47,321 nucleotides of DNA from Candidatus Gastranaerophilales bacterium. Lineage in GTDB: Bacteria; Cyanobacteriota; Vampirovibrionia; Gastranaerophilales; Gastranaerophilaceae. Under the pieces are notes generated by a model, which was not told where the DNA came from, made no database searches, and was given only the letters and a program-made list of their open reading frames with translations. Positions 3,904 through 13,511 of the stretch are shown piece after piece. A program made the position numbers and the translations under genes. Location: positions 1 to 47,321 of the forward strand of contig CALUVI010000010.1 in the NCBI GenBank assembly GCA_944324185.1, given 5' to 3'. Positions within the stretch are counted from its first letter, which is position 1. Every line of letters starts with the position of its first letter.

Positions 3904-5139
3904 TCATCCCTTTAAACCCGGTTCGGCGTCAGAACCTGTAATCTTCTTTCTCAGGACAAAAGTTAGCTTAGGAAGCGCAACCGCAAGCAAAATACTGCTA
4001 ATTCCGACGTTTGCCAGAATATTTGCTGATTTTACCATAAGAGCTTTTTTTGCGTATTTATCTATATTATTTGTTGCTTTTGCTTCTTTTGCAAATTTTT
4101 CCACTTCTGTTAAGAATTTTTCAATTCGTTTTTCGTCAACATAGGCTCTCGGGTCTCTCACCCTACTTTTTAAATATCTGACCCCGCAATATTTTTCGCA
4201 CAGTTTGGAAATTTGCGAATCTGGATTCTTATCAAGATAATCAATATAATTTCCTTTTGGAATATTTAAAGTTCCATCCTTTATAGAGTTAATAAAGGTT
4301 TTGTCATTCATTAGCATTGGATCAAGGTTGACATTTGTGTTAAATAATTTCCCTGAAATAGAGTCAAATCCTTTTGCAATCCAGATTGGAGCCACAAAGT
4401 TTAAAAACATCATCATTGTCATCTTAAACCCGTTTTCAAGTTTTTCGTATTTATTTCTTGCAGTTCCGACACGCCCGATTGTAAGCCCGCCGTCAGTTAC
4501 AGCCATTTTATTAACCGTTGACATATTTGCAAGCGCTGATACAATACCCTTGAAAGAAGGATTAGAACTGTCGGCAGGAAGCTGATAAGTTCTCTCTGCA
4601 GCCATAGTTTTTTCTACAATCGGTTTAACTGCCTCCTGTTTTTTCTTAAGCTTCGCTGTCAGAGCAAAATTGGATTTAGGTAGAATATATCCCATAAGCA
4701 GGACAGGAATTGCAGTCGATAGCACAAATTTGCCGGCAAGAAGCTTCTGGTATTTTGATTTATTGCTTAAAACTTTTTCCAGACTCTTAACCTCATCCGG
4801 CGCCGACTTTCTAAACTTATCAATATTATACTTAAGCCCCTGTTTGCCGTCCTCTTTCAATAAATTAACATTTACCTCCGGATCAAATCCGGATTTTCTA
4901 ATCATCCAGTCACAAACCTTGTTCATAACAGGGATTCCTCCCAGCCATACAATAGACGAGCCGTACTCATCTATTGTACGTTCCCTTAAAGCATTGTTTG
5001 CCATCTGTTTGGAATCTTTGAGGTTCTGATTATAAGTCATTCCGATTTTTACAGGGTTCTCAATCCCGCAATCACGTACAATAAGAGGGTAAATACTGGA
5101 ATTATTCCCTATTGCAGATATTATATTTACTAATGACAT
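3904..5139 (-). CDS. Orphan membrane protein with a long structured leader
   Basis: I do not recognise a named family. The 411-residue protein has hydrophobic stretches at about 134-155 (KFVLSTAIPVLLMGYILP), about 240-260 (MTMMMFLNFVAPIWIA) and near the C-terminus (ILANVGISSILLAVALP), so it is probably an integral membrane protein with a basic C-terminal tail. A PSFKG sequence occurs inside it near residue 200, echoing the N-terminal motif of other orphans in the window. The start (ATG at 5139) has AAGGAG about 11 nt upstream. It is preceded by about 170 nt of leader RNA that encodes a short His-rich peptide (5220-5297). It reads on the strand opposite the radical SAM gene, with a 37-bp convergent gap. 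By hydrophobic layout it resembles the pair at 42.2-44.4 kb. Confidence 0.75.
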   Translation of the reverse strand: MSLVNIISAIGNNSSIYPLIVRDCGIENPVKIGMTYNQNLKDSKQMANNALRERTIDEYGSSIVWLGGIPVMNKVCDWMIRKSGFDPEVNVNLLKEDGKQGLKYNIDKFRKSAPDEVKSLEKVLSNKSKYQKLLAGKFVLSTAIPVLLMGYILPKSNFALTAKLKKKQEAVKPIVEKTMAAERTYQLPADSSNPSFKGIVSALANMSTVNKMAVTDGGLTIGRVGTARNKYEKLENGFKMTMMMFLNFVAPIWIAKGFDSISGKLFNTNVNLDPMLMNDKTFINSIKDGTLNIPKGNYIDYLDKNPDSQISKLCEKYCGVRYLKSRVRDPRAYVDEKRIEKFLTEVEKFAKEAKATNNIDKYAKKALMVKSANILANVGISSILLAVALPKLTFVLRKKITGSDAEPGLKG

Positions 5140-5310
5140 TTTTTAAATTTCTCCTTGGTAATCGTACTCTTTACATTCTCTCTTGAATATCCCGAAAGAG
5201 CCGAGTGGGGAAAGGAGTTTTAGAAGAGAAGCACAAAAACTCCGAGCCCTTCCGGGTTCGCATGAGTATGATGATGTCTCTTTAAAGTTAATGCCATTAT
5301 TCTTTCCTTT
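5140..5310 (-). promoter_or_regulatory. Structured 5' leader (putative attenuator/riboregulator)
   Basis: The transcript leader of the 3904-5139 gene can fold. An inner hairpin pairs 5236-5243 with 5214-5221 (GGAGUUUU/AAAACUCC, 8 bp, loop 14 nt) and may extend through GGG/CCC (5208-5210 with 5247-5249). An overlapping, partly competing stem pairs 5249-5256 with 5191-5198 (CCCGGAAG/CUUUCGGG, one G-U). The stop codon of the leader peptide sits inside the inner stem. No U-tract follows, so it does not look like a Rho-independent terminator; translational or Rho-type control is more likely. A bare ATG-TAA start-stop unit lies at 5171-5176. The function is inferred from geometry only. Confidence 0.5.
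5220..5297 (-). CDS. His-rich leader peptide, 25 aa
   Basis: This is a short open frame starting with ATG at 5297, preceded by AGGAAAG. It encodes 25 residues beginning MALTLKRHHHTHANPEG, then LGVFVLLF, and stops at TAA 5220-5222. Four of residues 8-12 are His, the arrangement known from the his-operon leader peptide of enterobacteria, where ribosome stalling at His codons switches RNA folding. Its stop codon falls in an 8-bp hairpin and the main gene starts 80 nt further on. The downstream gene is not a recognised histidine gene, so what is controlled is open. Expression is unproven; chance cannot be excluded for an ORF this short. Confidence 0.5.
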   Translation of the reverse strand: MALTLKRHHHTHANPEGLGVFVLLF

Positions 5311-5316
5311 TTTACA

Positions 5317-5344
5317 ATAATATCATGAAGCATGTATTTGTAAA
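5317..5344 (-). promoter_or_regulatory. Promoter of the leader/orphan gene
   Basis: On the minus strand, -35 TTTACA (5339-5344) and -10 TATTAT (5317-5322) are separated by 16 bp. Transcription would start near 5310, about 13 nt before the leader-peptide ATG. The -35 overlaps the edge of the 34-bp palindrome at 5342-5375. Confidence 0.55.
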
Positions 5345-5375
5345 GGGCTACAGCGTATATACGCTGTAGCCCTTT
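5342..5375. terminator. Perfect 34-bp palindrome, likely terminator of the GH13 gene
   Basis: The arm AAAGGGCTACAGCGTAT (17 bp) is followed directly by its exact reverse complement, giving a gap-free 34-bp palindrome 21 bp beyond the stop of the GH13 gene. Only a short U-run follows. It could be a hairpin terminator, or a dimeric operator because it touches the -35 of the next promoter. Confidence 0.6.
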
Positions 5376-5396
5376 TAGATGTTTAAGTTTTTTACA

Positions 5397-7697
5397 TTAT
5401 TTGATTTTCTTTAAGATTGTGAAACTATTCGGTGCAAGTGAAAGATTTTGATTATTATGTGTAATATTTCTCTTAGCGTTTGAATATCCGGATCCGCCGT
5501 ATTCTTTAGCGTCACTGTTGAATATTTCCTGCCATGTACCATATTTAGGGAACCCCGCATAATTATAAGTATGGCTATGGAAGCCCTGCCCGAAGTTCTT
5601 GATTATCAAAAGTTCTTCACCATCAAGCTTCAACTGATGAGCATGAACCATATGGTAATTATCTTTGTAAGTCGCAATCATCTCACCCTTAGCCAGAACC
5701 GGATATTTGTCCAGAAGCTCTCTCAAATCAGCATTAAATTCTATCATCTGGTCATCTATGTCTCTAAACATACCTTCCGGCTCAACAGTACCGAGAGTTG
5801 ATTCAGGACGCGCAACGGCTTCCAGGGTGTCATACCCTTTTTTCTTAATTTCTTCTTTTACAAGGTTCGGATTATCTTTTCTCTTTGCTTTATCATCAGA
5901 AAGCTCACGGAAGAATTTGAAGTAAGATAAATCCATTTCATCATCACCCTGGAAGAACATCTTCGGACCGGGTGTTGTCATTATAGTTCCAAGCATGATT
6001 TTTTGTTTTGCAAATGCTGTTTTAAATACATCTGTTAATTCCTGCTTGGAGATAAATCTATGAATACCGTAATTTCTTTCTGCTTCAGCAAGCTTTTCAT
6101 CAGACATTTTTGCAAAATCTTTGGATACAACTAATTCTGCAAGATCCTGGGCTGCTTTTGCTGCATTCTGTCCCTTTTCTGCATCGTCTAGACCGTTTAC
6201 GTTAAAGAATAAACCGAGGTGACGGCTCATATATTTAGGAATAAATCTTGTACCATCTTCGTTTCCGATTTCATCATGGCTGTATGCGTATTTTACACGG
6301 TAATGAGATGTTTTGATATATTTATCCAGATCATCTATTGTAAATCTGTTAGGTTCAAGTGCAGCTCTGCTTACCGCATCTTTATACTGAGAATCCCACT
6401 CGCTGTCAAATCCGATACTCCAAGGGTATGTAAGCCACCCTTTTGTAATATTATCCACGCTTGAATCTATAAAATTGAGTTCACCGGCATGGTCTGCATT
6501 AGGATTTTTGTAATAGCTTGTAATTGAATGACGTTTTTTCTCATGGTCTTCTGCAATTAAAAATACATTAGGAGCATGCTCGTTAAGTTCGACGGCAATC
6601 TGTCTTAAAAGGTAATCAGAACCTGTTTTGTTAGTTAAATCAAATCTCAAGCCGTCAACTTTAAATTCTGTTGCCCACCAGAGAGCGGCGTTTGTCATCC
6701 AGTCGCGGACATATCTGTTATCTTTTCCTTCATAATTTAAAAGATTACCGAACTCTCCCGGACCTTTTATATAAGGTCCTGTTTGTGCAAGGTAATCTCC
6801 GTCAGGTCCCATGTGGTTTGGTACCATATCTATAATAACATTCAAACCTTTACCGTGGGCATGGTCGATTAATTCTTTTAATTGTTCAGGAGTTCCGAGA
6901 TTTGAATTTACTGCAAATTTGTCTACTCCGTCGTATCCCCACTGCTTGGAAAATGTATTTTCAATAGGCATAAGCTCAATTGCGGTTGCAATGCCTTTTC
7001 TTGCGATTTCATCAATTCTGGCCTTTGCACTTTCAAATGTGCCTTCTTTTGTCAGCGTAGGAATATTAACTTCATCTATAATAAGCTTTTCCAAGCCTCT
7101 TAAAGGTTCGTTTCCTTTTCTTACAATTCTTCTCGGGTCTTTGCCTTCTAACCAGCCGGTGTTTTTCCACTTGTATCCATCCGGATTATAAACCGTACTC
7201 CAGCCGTGAATATTATCCTGCTTCTTAGAATACGGATCTTTTACCATATTTACCTGATTATCTTTTGTTACGATAATATAGCGGTATTTGTCTCCGGGTT
7301 TTGCCTGAACATTATCAACCTGAAAAACACCGTCACCTTTATTTTCCATAGGAAAAACTCTTGATTTACTGTCAATAGGCTTTGCTTCAATATTTCCTGC
7401 AGCTGCAGAAGCACCGGCTGCGGCTCCGGCAAGTCCTAAAACAGTAATAAATCTTTCTCGAATATTTGCCAATTTTACGGCTGCATTTTCTGCAACTTCT
7501 ACAAATACTGCTTTTGCATCCGGAAAAGAGAACAATTTAAAATTAGTTGTTCCGGATTTCTTTAAATAATTGGCACCCCAGCTTGCATGTTCTGCCCAGT
7601 TACGTCTAAACGCAGGGTAACTGTAATTTTGATCTTTTGATTTCTTAATTGTCCGATTGTTTGTTCCGAATGTAACACCAATGTTTTCAACTTTCAT
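5397..7697 (-). CDS. GH13 alpha-glucan enzyme (branching enzyme / TreZ-like)
   Basis: This alpha-amylase-superfamily enzyme (766 aa) acts on alpha-1,4-glucans. After an N-terminal CBM48-like beta domain, the catalytic barrel shows region I DMVPNH (290-295), region II GLRFDLT with nucleophile Asp353, region III IAEDH with acid/base Glu383, and region IV SHDEIGN with His474-Asp475. The AIELMPIE and WGYDGVD blocks are typical of branching enzymes and malto-oligosyltrehalose trehalohydrolases; I cannot decide between them. Oddities: the N-terminus reads MKVENIGVTFG, sharing a short motif with orphan proteins here, and the CBM48 region is interrupted at about 72-110 by an Ala/Gly-rich hydrophobic insert (VLGLAGAAAGASAAAG). 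ATG 7697 has AGGAG 8 nt upstream; a longer frame to 7715 lacks support. Confidence 0.85.
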   Translation of the reverse strand: MKVENIGVTFGTNNRTIKKSKDQNYSYPAFRRNWAEHASWGANYLKKSGTTNFKLFSFPDAKAVFVEVAENAAVKLANIRERFITVLGLAGAAAGASAAAGNIEAKPIDSKSRVFPMENKGDGVFQVDNVQAKPGDKYRYIIVTKDNQVNMVKDPYSKKQDNIHGWSTVYNPDGYKWKNTGWLEGKDPRRIVRKGNEPLRGLEKLIIDEVNIPTLTKEGTFESAKARIDEIARKGIATAIELMPIENTFSKQWGYDGVDKFAVNSNLGTPEQLKELIDHAHGKGLNVIIDMVPNHMGPDGDYLAQTGPYIKGPGEFGNLLNYEGKDNRYVRDWMTNAALWWATEFKVDGLRFDLTNKTGSDYLLRQIAVELNEHAPNVFLIAEDHEKKRHSITSYYKNPNADHAGELNFIDSSVDNITKGWLTYPWSIGFDSEWDSQYKDAVSRAALEPNRFTIDDLDKYIKTSHYRVKYAYSHDEIGNEDGTRFIPKYMSRHLGLFFNVNGLDDAEKGQNAAKAAQDLAELVVSKDFAKMSDEKLAEAERNYGIHRFISKQELTDVFKTAFAKQKIMLGTIMTTPGPKMFFQGDDEMDLSYFKFFRELSDDKAKRKDNPNLVKEEIKKKGYDTLEAVARPESTLGTVEPEGMFRDIDDQMIEFNADLRELLDKYPVLAKGEMIATYKDNYHMVHAHQLKLDGEELLIIKNFGQGFHSHTYNYAGFPKYGTWQEIFNSDAKEYGGSGYSNAKRNITHNNQNLSLAPNSFTILKKIK

Positions 7698-8851: not shown

Positions 8852-10966
8852 ATGTCACCATATAGCTACAGCTTAAATAAACCATTGTGGGATCCTGGTA
8901 ATTTCACATTCAATACATTTTCCCCTGTTGGCGGATGGAACGGGGGCTTCGGGAATTTTCAAATGCCACGGTTTGGAACTTCGTCATCATCAGACTCAAC
9001 AGCGCCGGATTCCTATGAGGCATGGAAAAAAGAAGAGTTAAAAAGGCAGGAAGAAGAAGCAAAAAAATCTGCTTTTCTGGATGAACGTTCGGAAGAAGTG
9101 AAAAAAACTAAAGAATTAATAGAAGCACAAGAAAATATAATTAAGAATATAAAAAAAGGAAAAAAAGCTGACGGCAGTTACGTCGTAGAAAACGCAAAAC
9201 TTGAAGGACCAAAATTAAAAGAGGACGGCAGCATTGACAAAGAAGCCTCAAAGCCTAAAAAGAAAGGGTTCTGGGCAAAAGCCGGCGAGTGGGTATGTTC
9301 TGCAGGTTCAGCCTTGAAGAACATGGGCAAGAGTTTAATTGGTTTTGATGAAAATGGTAAGTGGAGCTGGAAAAAATGTCTTAAAAACGTAGCAATTACA
9401 GCAGCTGCAATAGGTGCAACATTTATTCCGGTAGTGGGTCCTGCTATCGGATACGGCTTGTTGGCTTACGGAGTCGTAAGCGGCGGTGTCGGCGTTGCCA
9501 AAGGTATATCAAAACTCAACAAAGCTAAAACAGAAGAGGCGAAAGAGCAGGCAAGACAGGATATTTGTTCCGGTGCATTTGTCGGTATATCCTCCGCAAT
9601 CGGTCTCAGGGGACTTGGTAAATCAGTAAGTGCTGCAGCAAAAGCATCAGGTACTAATACAACAACTATGGGTATCTCGGCAGTTGCTAAAGCAAGAACC
9701 GGATTAGGAAAACCTATAGAGGTAATATCTCAGGCAACGAGAGACATGACAGTTAACGCATTTAAGGCAACAACAAATGCAATGCAGGCAGACAAAGCGC
9801 TTATTGCTGCAAACGGCGGCGGTATTAAAGGGTTTGGCAAAGCTTATGCTAATAAAGTTAACACTGCAGTTAATAATGTCAATAACTGGAGCAAAAGATA
9901 TCAGGATAAATATGCAGAGATGGAAACATCTTTGAATAACAGAATTTCAGAACTAAATAGTCAAATTGCAGCAGAAACGAATGCCGCAAAGCGTACATTA
10001 TTGCAGGAACAAAAAGCAATGCTTGAAAGTAACCTGAACGAACTACGTTCAATTTCAGGATTCAAGTCAAAAACTGAATTTGATAGGCTTAATACAGAAA
10101 ATTCAGGTATCAGAAATCAGGAACAGCTTTCTTCTTATACACAAAATTCAAGAGGCGGTTATGATATAAACGGTCACTCAATTTCACAACAGAGATTTGA
10201 TGTATTCAGAAAAGAAATGGAAGCAATGCAAAAATCTTATATCAAAGATCTTAAGAAATTGAATCAATTCAAAGAAGCTCAGATGCGCAGCTTTTCAAAA
10301 CATCCTGATTCTCACAGAAGAGAGTTGAATGAATACACAGATGCAACAGTTCGTGCAAAATACAATACAAAAGACAAATTAAAAGCCGGTATACAAAATC
10401 TAAGCAGTAAAATAGAAAATTTAACGACTAAAATTGCAGAAGTTGAGGAGAAACTTGCACGAGCAACAAGCCGGAGAAAGATTGCAGGTCTCAAAAATAC
10501 ACTTAACAACTTGAAGGCTCAAAAACTTGCGGCAGAAAATGAACTTGCAATTTGTAATTCCATAAAATTCAAATCATTATTCAAGAGTTCAACCTGGTTA
10601 AAAAATGAATACAGTAACTATATCGGCGGAAGTAATGCGTCATTCGGAGCTTTAAGAAGTTATGCAGGAAAAGCATTGACACATCCTGCAGCAGCAGTTC
10701 CGTTAACAATGGGGCAATGGGACAGAGAATATTCTATACCGATGTTTGGCTCTCTTACACAATTAACGAAAGAACAGGGAGAAGAATACATAACCCAGCT
10801 GGAGCAGCAGATAGCTGAGTACGAAAAAACTCTGGAGGCTTTAAATGAGATTGAGTCGGCTGAAGAATGGGAAACAATAAAAGCTCAGTATGCTGCACAA
10901 TTAAAAGCTCAAGAAGAAGCTCAGGCAGCAGCACAAGCAGCGCAGGAAGCTCAAGGGCAGCAATAA
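8852..10966 (+). CDS. Orphan 704-aa protein: coiled coils around a hydrophobic glycine-rich core
   Basis: No family is recognised. Visible layout: an N-terminal Gly/Phe/Pro/Ser-rich region (1-52, with MPRFGT at 38-43), a charged helix (55-103), and a Lys-rich linker. Then comes a 40-residue hydrophobic glycine-rich block (180-218) that includes IPVVGPAIGYGLLAYGVVSG, followed by an Ala-rich helical region. Long heptad-like coiled coils lie at about 350-400 and 500-560. The C-terminal helix is rich in Gln, Glu and Ala (about 650-704). There is no classical signal peptide. The hydrophobic hairpin flanked by long helices resembles secreted pore-forming or translocator proteins, but that is analogy only. 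AGGGAG precedes the start. It converges on rlhA with one base between the stops and no terminator. Confidence 0.7.
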   Translation: MSPYSYSLNKPLWDPGNFTFNTFSPVGGWNGGFGNFQMPRFGTSSSSDSTAPDSYEAWKKEELKRQEEEAKKSAFLDERSEEVKKTKELIEAQENIIKNIKKGKKADGSYVVENAKLEGPKLKEDGSIDKEASKPKKKGFWAKAGEWVCSAGSALKNMGKSLIGFDENGKWSWKKCLKNVAITAAAIGATFIPVVGPAIGYGLLAYGVVSGGVGVAKGISKLNKAKTEEAKEQARQDICSGAFVGISSAIGLRGLGKSVSAAAKASGTNTTTMGISAVAKARTGLGKPIEVISQATRDMTVNAFKATTNAMQADKALIAANGGGIKGFGKAYANKVNTAVNNVNNWSKRYQDKYAEMETSLNNRISELNSQIAAETNAAKRTLLQEQKAMLESNLNELRSISGFKSKTEFDRLNTENSGIRNQEQLSSYTQNSRGGYDINGHSISQQRFDVFRKEMEAMQKSYIKDLKKLNQFKEAQMRSFSKHPDSHRRELNEYTDATVRAKYNTKDKLKAGIQNLSSKIENLTTKIAEVEEKLARATSRRKIAGLKNTLNNLKAQKLAAENELAICNSIKFKSLFKSSTWLKNEYSNYIGGSNASFGALRSYAGKALTHPAAAVPLTMGQWDREYSIPMFGSLTQLTKEQGEEYITQLEQQIAEYEKTLEALNEIESAEEWETIKAQYAAQLKAQEEAQAAAQAAQEAQGQQ

Positions 10967-12801: not shown

Positions 12802-13260
12802 TACCGCGCTCACCTCCAAAGTTGGAGAGGTCGCAGTTGTGCGAGCGTCAGCGAGCTACAAATGCGGGTGGGGTTCAGACAAAACTAATCCCCATCCTAA
12901 CCTTCCCCAACTGGGGAAGGAACACGCGTTGTCGTCCAATTAGCGCATTACCAGCGCCCGATAATCGCGTCTACCTCCCAAGTTGGGGAGGTCGCAGTTG
13001 TGCGAGCGTCAGCGAGCTACAAATGCGGGGGGGGCAGACAAAACTAATCCCCATCCTAACCTTCCCCAACTGGGGAAGGAACGCGCGTTGTCGTCCAATT
13101 AGCGCATTACCAGCGTCCAATAACCGCGTCTACCTCCCAAGTTGGGGAGGTCGCAGTTGTGCGAACGTTAGTGAGCTACAAATGCGGGTGGGGTTCAGAC
13201 AACGTAAAGTACACCCCCACCCTAACCCTCCCCGCCGGAGAGGGAATGCGCGTTGTCGTT
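12802..13260. repeat. Three tandem ~160-bp palindromic repeat units
   Basis: Units start at equivalent points 12812, 12973 and 13132, periods of 161 and 159 bp. Each contains a hairpin ACCTCC..GTTGG.GAGGT, then GTCGCAGTTGTGCGA, GTGAGCTACAAATGCGGG-type sequence, a CCTAACC block, a second hairpin CCTTCCCC/GGGGAAGG (altered in unit 3), and CGCGTTGTCGT. A related unit lies inverted at 1-250 and a diverged piece at 18460-18600. Open frames of 60-150 codons here are byproducts of the repeat. Long conserved units without unique spacers argue against CRISPR. It is probably a REP/MITE-type element amplified in tandem. Confidence 0.85.
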
Positions 13261-13265
13261 CGATT

Positions 13266-13511
13266 AACGCCTAACCCTCGCCCCTTGTGGGAGAGGGAAG
13301 AATTTCAAGTTGAGCTGGAGCGAAACTTAGAAATTCGGGTGAGGGGTAGGAAAAAGGTTGGGTGGAACCCAACAATAACTGTATGGATTGCCGCGTCGCT
13401 CCCGCTCCTCGCAATGCCACCCCGCCGGTAGTTTCACCTACCAACCCAAACATTTACCCCCGCAATGACACGAAGTTTGTAGTCTTATCTACCAACCCAA
13501 ACATTTACCCC
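13266..13511. repeat. Composite of other stem-loop repeats
   Basis: This is a mosaic of short palindromic elements adjoining the tandem array. At 13300-13311/13324-13336, GAATTTCAAGTT pairs with AACTTAGAAATTC, inside flanks CTAACCCTCGCCCC and GGTGAGGGG. At about 13358-13374, GTTGGGT pairs with ACCCAAC. The segment at about 13386-13416 (ATTGCCGCGTCGCTCC then GCTCCTCGCAATG) resembles a repeat that I recall as widespread in bacterial genomes. Two tandem stem-loops (GGTAG/CTACC and GTAG/CTAC) at 13427-13511 each end in AACCCAAACATTTACCCCC. No gene is visible from 12720 to 13528. Confidence 0.7.

Follow-up and report, generated by a model that had tools for sequence, protein, structure and literature searches.

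The leader of an orphan membrane-protein gene in a Candidatus Gastranaerophilales bacterium is, with a probability of roughly 0.87 and judged by comparative and modelled evidence, all of it computational, a ribosome-mediated translational attenuator that would sense charged tRNA-His. The gene lies on the minus strand of the analyzed stretch of DNA (the window; 47,321 nucleotides of contig CALUVI010000010.1). An earlier note, made from the letters of the window, had proposed a ribosome-stalling sensor based on His codons in front of a membrane-protein gene unrelated to histidine biosynthesis. This proposal is supported by conserved His codons, by covarying alternative stems, and by a modelled switch in the accessibility of the Shine-Dalgarno (SD) sequence; it is further backed by relatives whose leaders carry a terminator, by missing genes for histidine biosynthesis, and by a target protein nearly devoid of histidine.

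In the proposed mechanism, a ribosome translating the leader under ample histidine would pass the HHHTH run and disrupt region 2 of the RNA, so that region 3 would pair with region 4 and the SD, and the membrane-protein gene would be off. On a leader without ribosome, a 1:2 stem would occupy region 2, and the gene would be off as well. When charged tRNA-His is scarce, the ribosome would stall on the first His codons, covering region 1 and leaving region 2 free; the ensuing 2:3 pairing would expose the SD, and the gene would be on. The net effect would be the induction, in a histidine-starved putative auxotroph, of a membrane protein that needs almost no histidine to be made. We infer that the ribosome does stall, that the gene responds with this sign in the cell, and that the protein helps to cope with a shortage of histidine.

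Layout of the locus

All elements that the earlier note had placed between positions 5140 and 5344 were found there on the minus strand, in the 5′ to 3′ order promoter, SD AAAGGA, leader ORF, a structured stretch of 80 nt, and SD AAGGAG, with the orphan ORF following from 5139 on. The main features are as follows:

5317..5344, minus strand: putative promoter of the sigma-70 type, with −35 TTTACA (5344..5339), a 16-nt spacer, and −10 TATTAT (5322..5317); from the sequence
5220..5297, minus strand: leader ORF MALTLKRHHHTHANPEGLGVFVLLF with stop, 25 codons, SD AAAGGA before the start; from ORF reading and relatives
5262..5276, minus strand: regulatory codons CAU CAU CAU ACU CAU (His8, His9, His10, Thr11, His12); switching point of the modelled SD accessibility
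5176..5171, minus strand: ATG-TAA unit; from the sequence
3904..5139, minus strand: regulated gene, encoding an orphan membrane protein of 411 aa with no histidine; from the ORF and from searches

The consensus-like promoter described before is present as TTTACA-N16-TATTAT, and a similar one was found at 42 of the 44 related loci whose leaders are of the window type (a control stretch lying upstream of it had one at 6 of 44). The SD and the 25-codon ORF with His at four of residues 8-12 were also confirmed (His8, 9, 10, and 12). The next gene upstream encodes a GlgB-like branching enzyme, and a hairpin is located between this gene and the promoter. A strong hairpin at the end of the leader ORF had been claimed as well. 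Pairing of the 3′ half of the ORF was indeed found, but by minimum free energy the leader did not stand out (z = −1.25; 22 of 200 shuffles were equally good), and the alternative stems described below would not have been recognized from it; the case for a leader RNA therefore rests on conservation and covariation. The ATG-TAA start-stop unit before the main gene exists, but it is not conserved; since ATGTAA was found in just 10 of the 44 window-type relatives, it is probably a chance occurrence. A terminator search of the window returned no U-tract or intrinsic terminator, in keeping with the missing U-tract reported before. Elsewhere in the window (12803-13270), 2.9 copies of a 159-bp unit form a tandem array between two genes, and the ORFs listed within this array are probably spurious.

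Conservation of the His codons

Orthologues were taken from 33 other genomes of the same genus, most of which gave matches, and from a scan of GTDB genomes, where the carriers were largely metagenome-assembled genomes of Candidatus Gastranaerophilales from gut and rumen. In total, 78 loci were compared (44 of the window type and 34 more diverged), and an ORF was considered His-rich when it encoded at least three His, with HH. Such an ORF preceded the orthologue at 78 of the 78 loci read in Candidatus Gastranaerophilales, so that the conservation of short ORF and His codons in relatives, which the earlier note had named as a check, was found throughout. The window-type ORFs comprise 17-28 codons with 3-5 His (44 of 44 loci), and 3-5 His were likewise counted at 34 of 34 diverged loci. 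A short ORF with an SD and a run of codons for a single amino acid, one of the features expected of a leader-peptide attenuator, thus appears to be present in both groups (44/44 and 34/34).

The remainder of the peptide is less constant. At three window-type loci, its C-terminus is shortened (17-18 aa), and the His run is retained. The portion NPKGLGVL is well conserved within the window clade; it is gone in loci L064, L066, and L074 and in the clades of the terminator type (see below), all of which retain the His codons. Order and spacing of the His residues vary among leaders (HHTHH, LHHTH, HHNSH, HHTYH), and their number stays at 3-5. Retention of the His run despite a varying remainder indicates that constraint on the peptide acts on the His codons and on those stretches whose RNA is paired.

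Searches with the RNA model and with the His-codon pattern pointed to this locus alone. The other matches to CAYCAYCAYNNNCAY in the same genome were within long ORFs or in reading frames that lack a start codon. In 28 genomes, the RNA model gave strong matches at this type of locus only. One genome (G016; contigs C56, C1, C96, and C79) additionally gave four weak model matches, with E between 8e-4 and 0.18 and several of them at contig ends; they perhaps represent a repeated element.

Alternative pairings of the leader RNA

The segments predicted to pair within the window-type leader are the following:

5277..5282, minus strand: region 1, AAGAGA in the window and AAAAC-type in most relatives, immediately 5′ of the His codons; partner at the end of the leader ORF
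5224..5229, minus strand: UCUCUU, pairing with region 1 to form the 1:2 protector stem; from sequence inspection
5246..5256, minus strand: region 2a, CCCGGAAGGGC, forming a local CCC/GGG hairpin or pairing with region 3b; 11-bp helix with compensatory changes
5236..5243, minus strand: region 2b, GGAGUUUU, partner of 3a, AAAACUCC, in the anti-sequester form; from helix 3 of the 2:3 count, partly misaligned, and from sequences
5211..5221, minus strand: region 3a, AAAACUCCUUU, containing the anti-SD CUCCUU, partner of 2b or of the SD; from sequences and accessibility modelling
5191..5204, minus strand: region 3b, UCGGCUCUUUCGGG, partner of 2a (ON) or of region 4 (OFF); from covariation counts
5162..5172, minus strand: region 4, AAAGAGUACGA, partner of UCGGCUCUUU in the OFF form; from the helix 3 count
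5151..5156, minus strand: SD AAGGAG preceding the orphan gene; in the OFF form, CUCCUU (5217..5212) hides it; from sequence and modelling

Region 3 (AAAACUCC and GCUCUUUCGGG) has alternative partners: region 2 (CCCGAAAGGGC and GGAGUUUU) on the one hand, and region 4 (AAAGAGUACGAU) and, via CUCCUUU, the SD on the other. The stems were first found by eye and then counted on an alignment of 26 sequences (A3). In the structure made up of 1:2 and part of 3:4, 88% of the cells were paired and nine pairs had changed on both sides; the corresponding values for the 2:3 structure were 90% and four pairs. Double-sided changes occurred at 6 of the 9 pairs of helix 1 (region 1 with the ORF end) and at 3 of the 8 pairs of the region 4 helix (helix 3; 90.9% of cells paired), and the 11 bp of the 2a helix were paired in 98.6% of cells. 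The 1:2 helix of the window itself is short (6 bp); it was identified by visual inspection, in a shifted register. The anti-SD pairing was omitted from the counted structure on account of the poor alignment there. For both alternative structures, the covariation score was above that of 500 of 500 shuffles, a statistic inflated by the relatedness of the sequences, and above that of every slid register, which preserves relatedness. The covariation of both structures argues for mutually exclusive 1:2, 2:3, and 3:4 stems, as found in attenuators. The competing stem that involves sequence downstream of the ORF, only suspected from the window, is therefore real and conserved (CCCGGAAGGGC with GCUCUUUCGGG), and the covariation in relatives that was to be looked for is there, with double-sided changes in both alternatives.

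Modelled switching by ribosome position

For the 44 window-type loci, a ribosome was set on each codon and only the RNA downstream of it was folded. The mean unpaired probability of the SD was 0.18 without ribosome. Its predicted value peaked at 0.63 when the A site was occupied by the third His codon, fell to 0.15 at the last His, and was 0.03-0.08 across most of the remaining codons. Dinucleotide-shuffled leaders were flat (0.30/0.30/0.32; p = 9e-15). In the model, the SD is thus exposed while the ribosome is on the first three His codons and hidden after their passage; that is, the position of the ribosome on the regulatory codons decides the structure in silico, with the shuffles as control. 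Also in silico, the SD is hidden by the region 4 structure (CUCCUU against AAGGAG), as would be expected for a translational attenuator. From the lack of a U-tract, either translational or Rho control had been suggested; of the two, the former is favoured because the 3:4 structure covers the SD.

With the ribosome at or near the leader stop codon, the modelled SD was open again (0.64), because the ribosome there covers the anti-SD (region 3a). Either termination and release must be quick, then, or the OFF state is leakier than the simple account holds. At one locus (L074), the SD was predicted to be occluded in every ribosome state.

Relatives of the terminator type

The 34 diverged loci carry the same gene (45-51% protein identity) behind a differently worded His-rich leader, for example MIQNFLQIHHHNHHINLKGC. 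A terminator hairpin with T-run was scored after the leader peptide in 29 of the 34; an intrinsic terminator of the hisL type is thus found in these relatives and is missing from the window. The antiterminator pairings (CCUGAAGGGGUUGU with ACAACUUCUUCAGG, CCUUGAAAGGCUAU with AUAGUCUUUCAAGG) show concerted changes, and the antiterminator helices reach up to 17 bp. In the 29 relatives, the modelled probability of the terminator was 0.80 on naked RNA, 0.08 with the ribosome at the third His, and about 0.9 once the ribosome had left the run behind; L094 was predicted to terminate in every ribosome state. Because an outer helix (e.g., UCAAUUCU/AGAAUUGA) extends to the SD in most of these relatives, their control looks double, by terminator and by SD. 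In the protein tree, the window-type sequences form a single clade (100/99) that is placed among two terminator-type lineages, and the simplest reading of this tree, in which the placement of the outgroups involves long branches, is that the terminator was lost in the window lineage.

Histidine auxotrophy and the target protein

HisD was absent from 34 of 34 genomes of the genus and from 31 of 31 further tested genomes with the leader, and present in 23 of 23 relatives outside the genus. Likewise, none of the 34 genomes of the genus had HisB/IGPD, which was present in 21 of the 23 other relatives. From the lack of HisD and IGPD, we infer that members of the genus are histidine auxotrophs. A protein made during histidine starvation is expected to avoid histidine. 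The orphan protein of the window contains none, and among 77 leader-bearing orthologues 65 contain none and 12 contain one (means of 0.23 and 0.06 in the two groups of loci); the mean was 2.4 for paralogues from the same genomes and 5.0 for homologues from HisD-positive families. The family is K-rich and His-poor even without a His leader (0.56% His in the paralogues), so that part of the depletion predates the leader or is unrelated to it.

Sequence searches of Pfam, NCBIfam, and PDB with the 411-aa protein yielded no relative. It has three clear hydrophobic segments, and its AlphaFold2 model is all helical (mean pLDDT 80). Foldseek returned no convincing structural neighbour of the model (best E 0.99), and VIA reached Z scores of at most 7.3, on parts of the model only; the chains with Z of 5-7 were of many unrelated kinds, ABC transporters included, which is within the background stated for helical models. 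The transporter that the earlier note had considered possible thus found no match in family or fold. The two halves of the protein show partial internal similarity (hhalign E about 5e-5, probability 65-71%). No conserved operon partner was found, the flanking genes differing between clades. The same genome also encodes an amino-acid ABC binding protein and two amino-acid permeases. The regulated target is thus a membrane protein and not, as with hisL, histidine biosynthesis; judged from its regulation alone, a function in histidine or peptide acquisition is plausible.

A more far-reaching scenario, which we consider tentative and somewhat short of even odds, is that a His-codon attenuator was kept after histidine synthesis had been lost and was rewired from termination plus SD control to translation only, on a single gene, for a so far unknown membrane protein of histidine scavenging or starvation that evolved to zero His.

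Alternative explanations

Runs such as HHHTH are capable of metal binding, and the function of the targeted membrane protein is unassigned; the leader peptide might thus sense Zn, Ni, or Co, with the metal on nascent HHHTH stalling or freeing the ribosome and a metal-related membrane protein being controlled. This is very unlikely: order and spacing of the His residues vary while their number holds, as codon counting predicts, the run is near residues 6-13 and hence still within the ribosome, and the loss of his genes and the His-low target point to histidine, not metal. The conservation of NPKGLGVL in the window clade would fit a sequence-specific arrest peptide (TnaC- or SpeFL-like) that responds to another small molecule and in which this stretch causes the arrest. 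Its codons, however, encode region 2 of the RNA switch, which explains the conservation, and it is lost from L064, L066, L074, and the terminator-type clades while the His codons stay; the probability of such a peptide is lower by a shade than that of the metal sensor.

In the model, any stall near the first three His codons exposes the SD, and the leader could therefore report slowed translation in general (ermC-like) rather than histidine specifically. At each of the 78 loci, however, the residues conserved where the ribosome would stall are His, and the genus lacks his genes, which leaves this reading as improbable as that of a metal sensor. Least probable of all, and close to negligible, is that the conserved short ORF encodes a working micro-protein, with an RNA structure that is either incidental or part of a common intergenic element; conservation of the peptide is concentrated where it is required by RNA pairing or by the His codons, the alternative stems covary, and the switching point matches the His run.

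Relation to known systems

With the hisL leader of Escherichia coli and Salmonella (Rfam His_leader), the attenuator proposed here has in common an ORF with a run of His codons, exclusive 1:2, 2:3, and 3:4 stems, and 2:3 pairing upon ribosome stalling. Whereas hisL acts by classical transcription attenuation, the output in the window clade would be sequestration of the SD without a U-tract; moreover, the target is the orphan membrane protein instead of the his operon, and the host appears to lack the his pathway. The sole Rfam match in the window was a tRNA, with nothing near the gathering score at 5100-5420 (His_leader included). Firmicutes, too, have attenuators with His leader peptides, located upstream of hisS/hisZ paralogues and of his genes (PMC2965389, PMC9413887). 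These attenuators share the terminator and antiterminator layout with the terminator-type relatives but belong to another phylum and have other targets, and most of the relatives described here additionally pair the SD region.

Translational attenuators have, in place of the terminator, a structure that masks the ribosome-binding site (PMC9413887). As in these and in the actinobacterial LEU element (PMC1262725), translation initiation of the next gene would be controlled through a leader ORF that contains regulatory codons; different here is a full 1:2/2:3/3:4 layout for histidine, together with terminator-type relatives, which likely show a route from transcriptional to translational control. 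In histidine auxotrophs, histidine transporters can be under T-box or HisR control (PMC9413887). There, too, a membrane protein of an auxotroph is governed by histidine supply, but the sensor proposed here is a translated leader peptide and its target is not a recognised transporter. The low cognate bias of amino-acid biosynthetic enzymes (PMC4209129) likewise reflects avoidance of an amino acid by proteins needed when it is scarce, here extended to a membrane protein of putative auxotrophs.

No paper combining Gastranaerophilales with a leader peptide was found in the literature searched. The mechanism is already known; new are its orphan target, the lineage in which it occurs, its setting in a putative auxotroph, and the series from terminator to SD. 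The link to histidine shortage would provide a first functional handle on an uncharacterised family of uncultured gut bacteria and extend leader-peptide attenuation to non-photosynthetic relatives of Cyanobacteria. The series of relatives (terminator plus SD, then SD alone) makes the change from transcriptional to translational attenuation traceable, and low histidine content is a simple signature that may be used to find other orphan proteins induced by starvation.

Short ORFs ahead of more distant homologues

Upstream of distant homologues of the orphan gene (L170, L171, L173, L176, and L177), the first leader ORF is a different one, MRIRxYQ(R/K)RCFYTN(...) with stop. Behind it come terminator-like hairpins with T-runs, and beyond these lies a second short ORF whose product has LMNLxWGL or IANLIWGL at its end; possibly, this is another attenuator type on the same gene family. 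Arginine auxotrophy as a parallel explanation for the Arg-rich leaders of distant homologues was rejected, as ArgG is present in G042 and G044 and most of the respective proteins are not Arg-poor. Within the genus of the window itself (G000-G033), a full-length ArgG match is missing throughout, which suggests that it depends on arginine as well. Paralogues of the orphan gene in the same genus (L164, on contig C6 of G000 near 8871, and L179-L198) are preceded by a lone, strongly conserved short ORF (e.g., MNKHSKKLMNLKWGL with stop), the stop codon of which nearly adjoins the start codon of the main gene.
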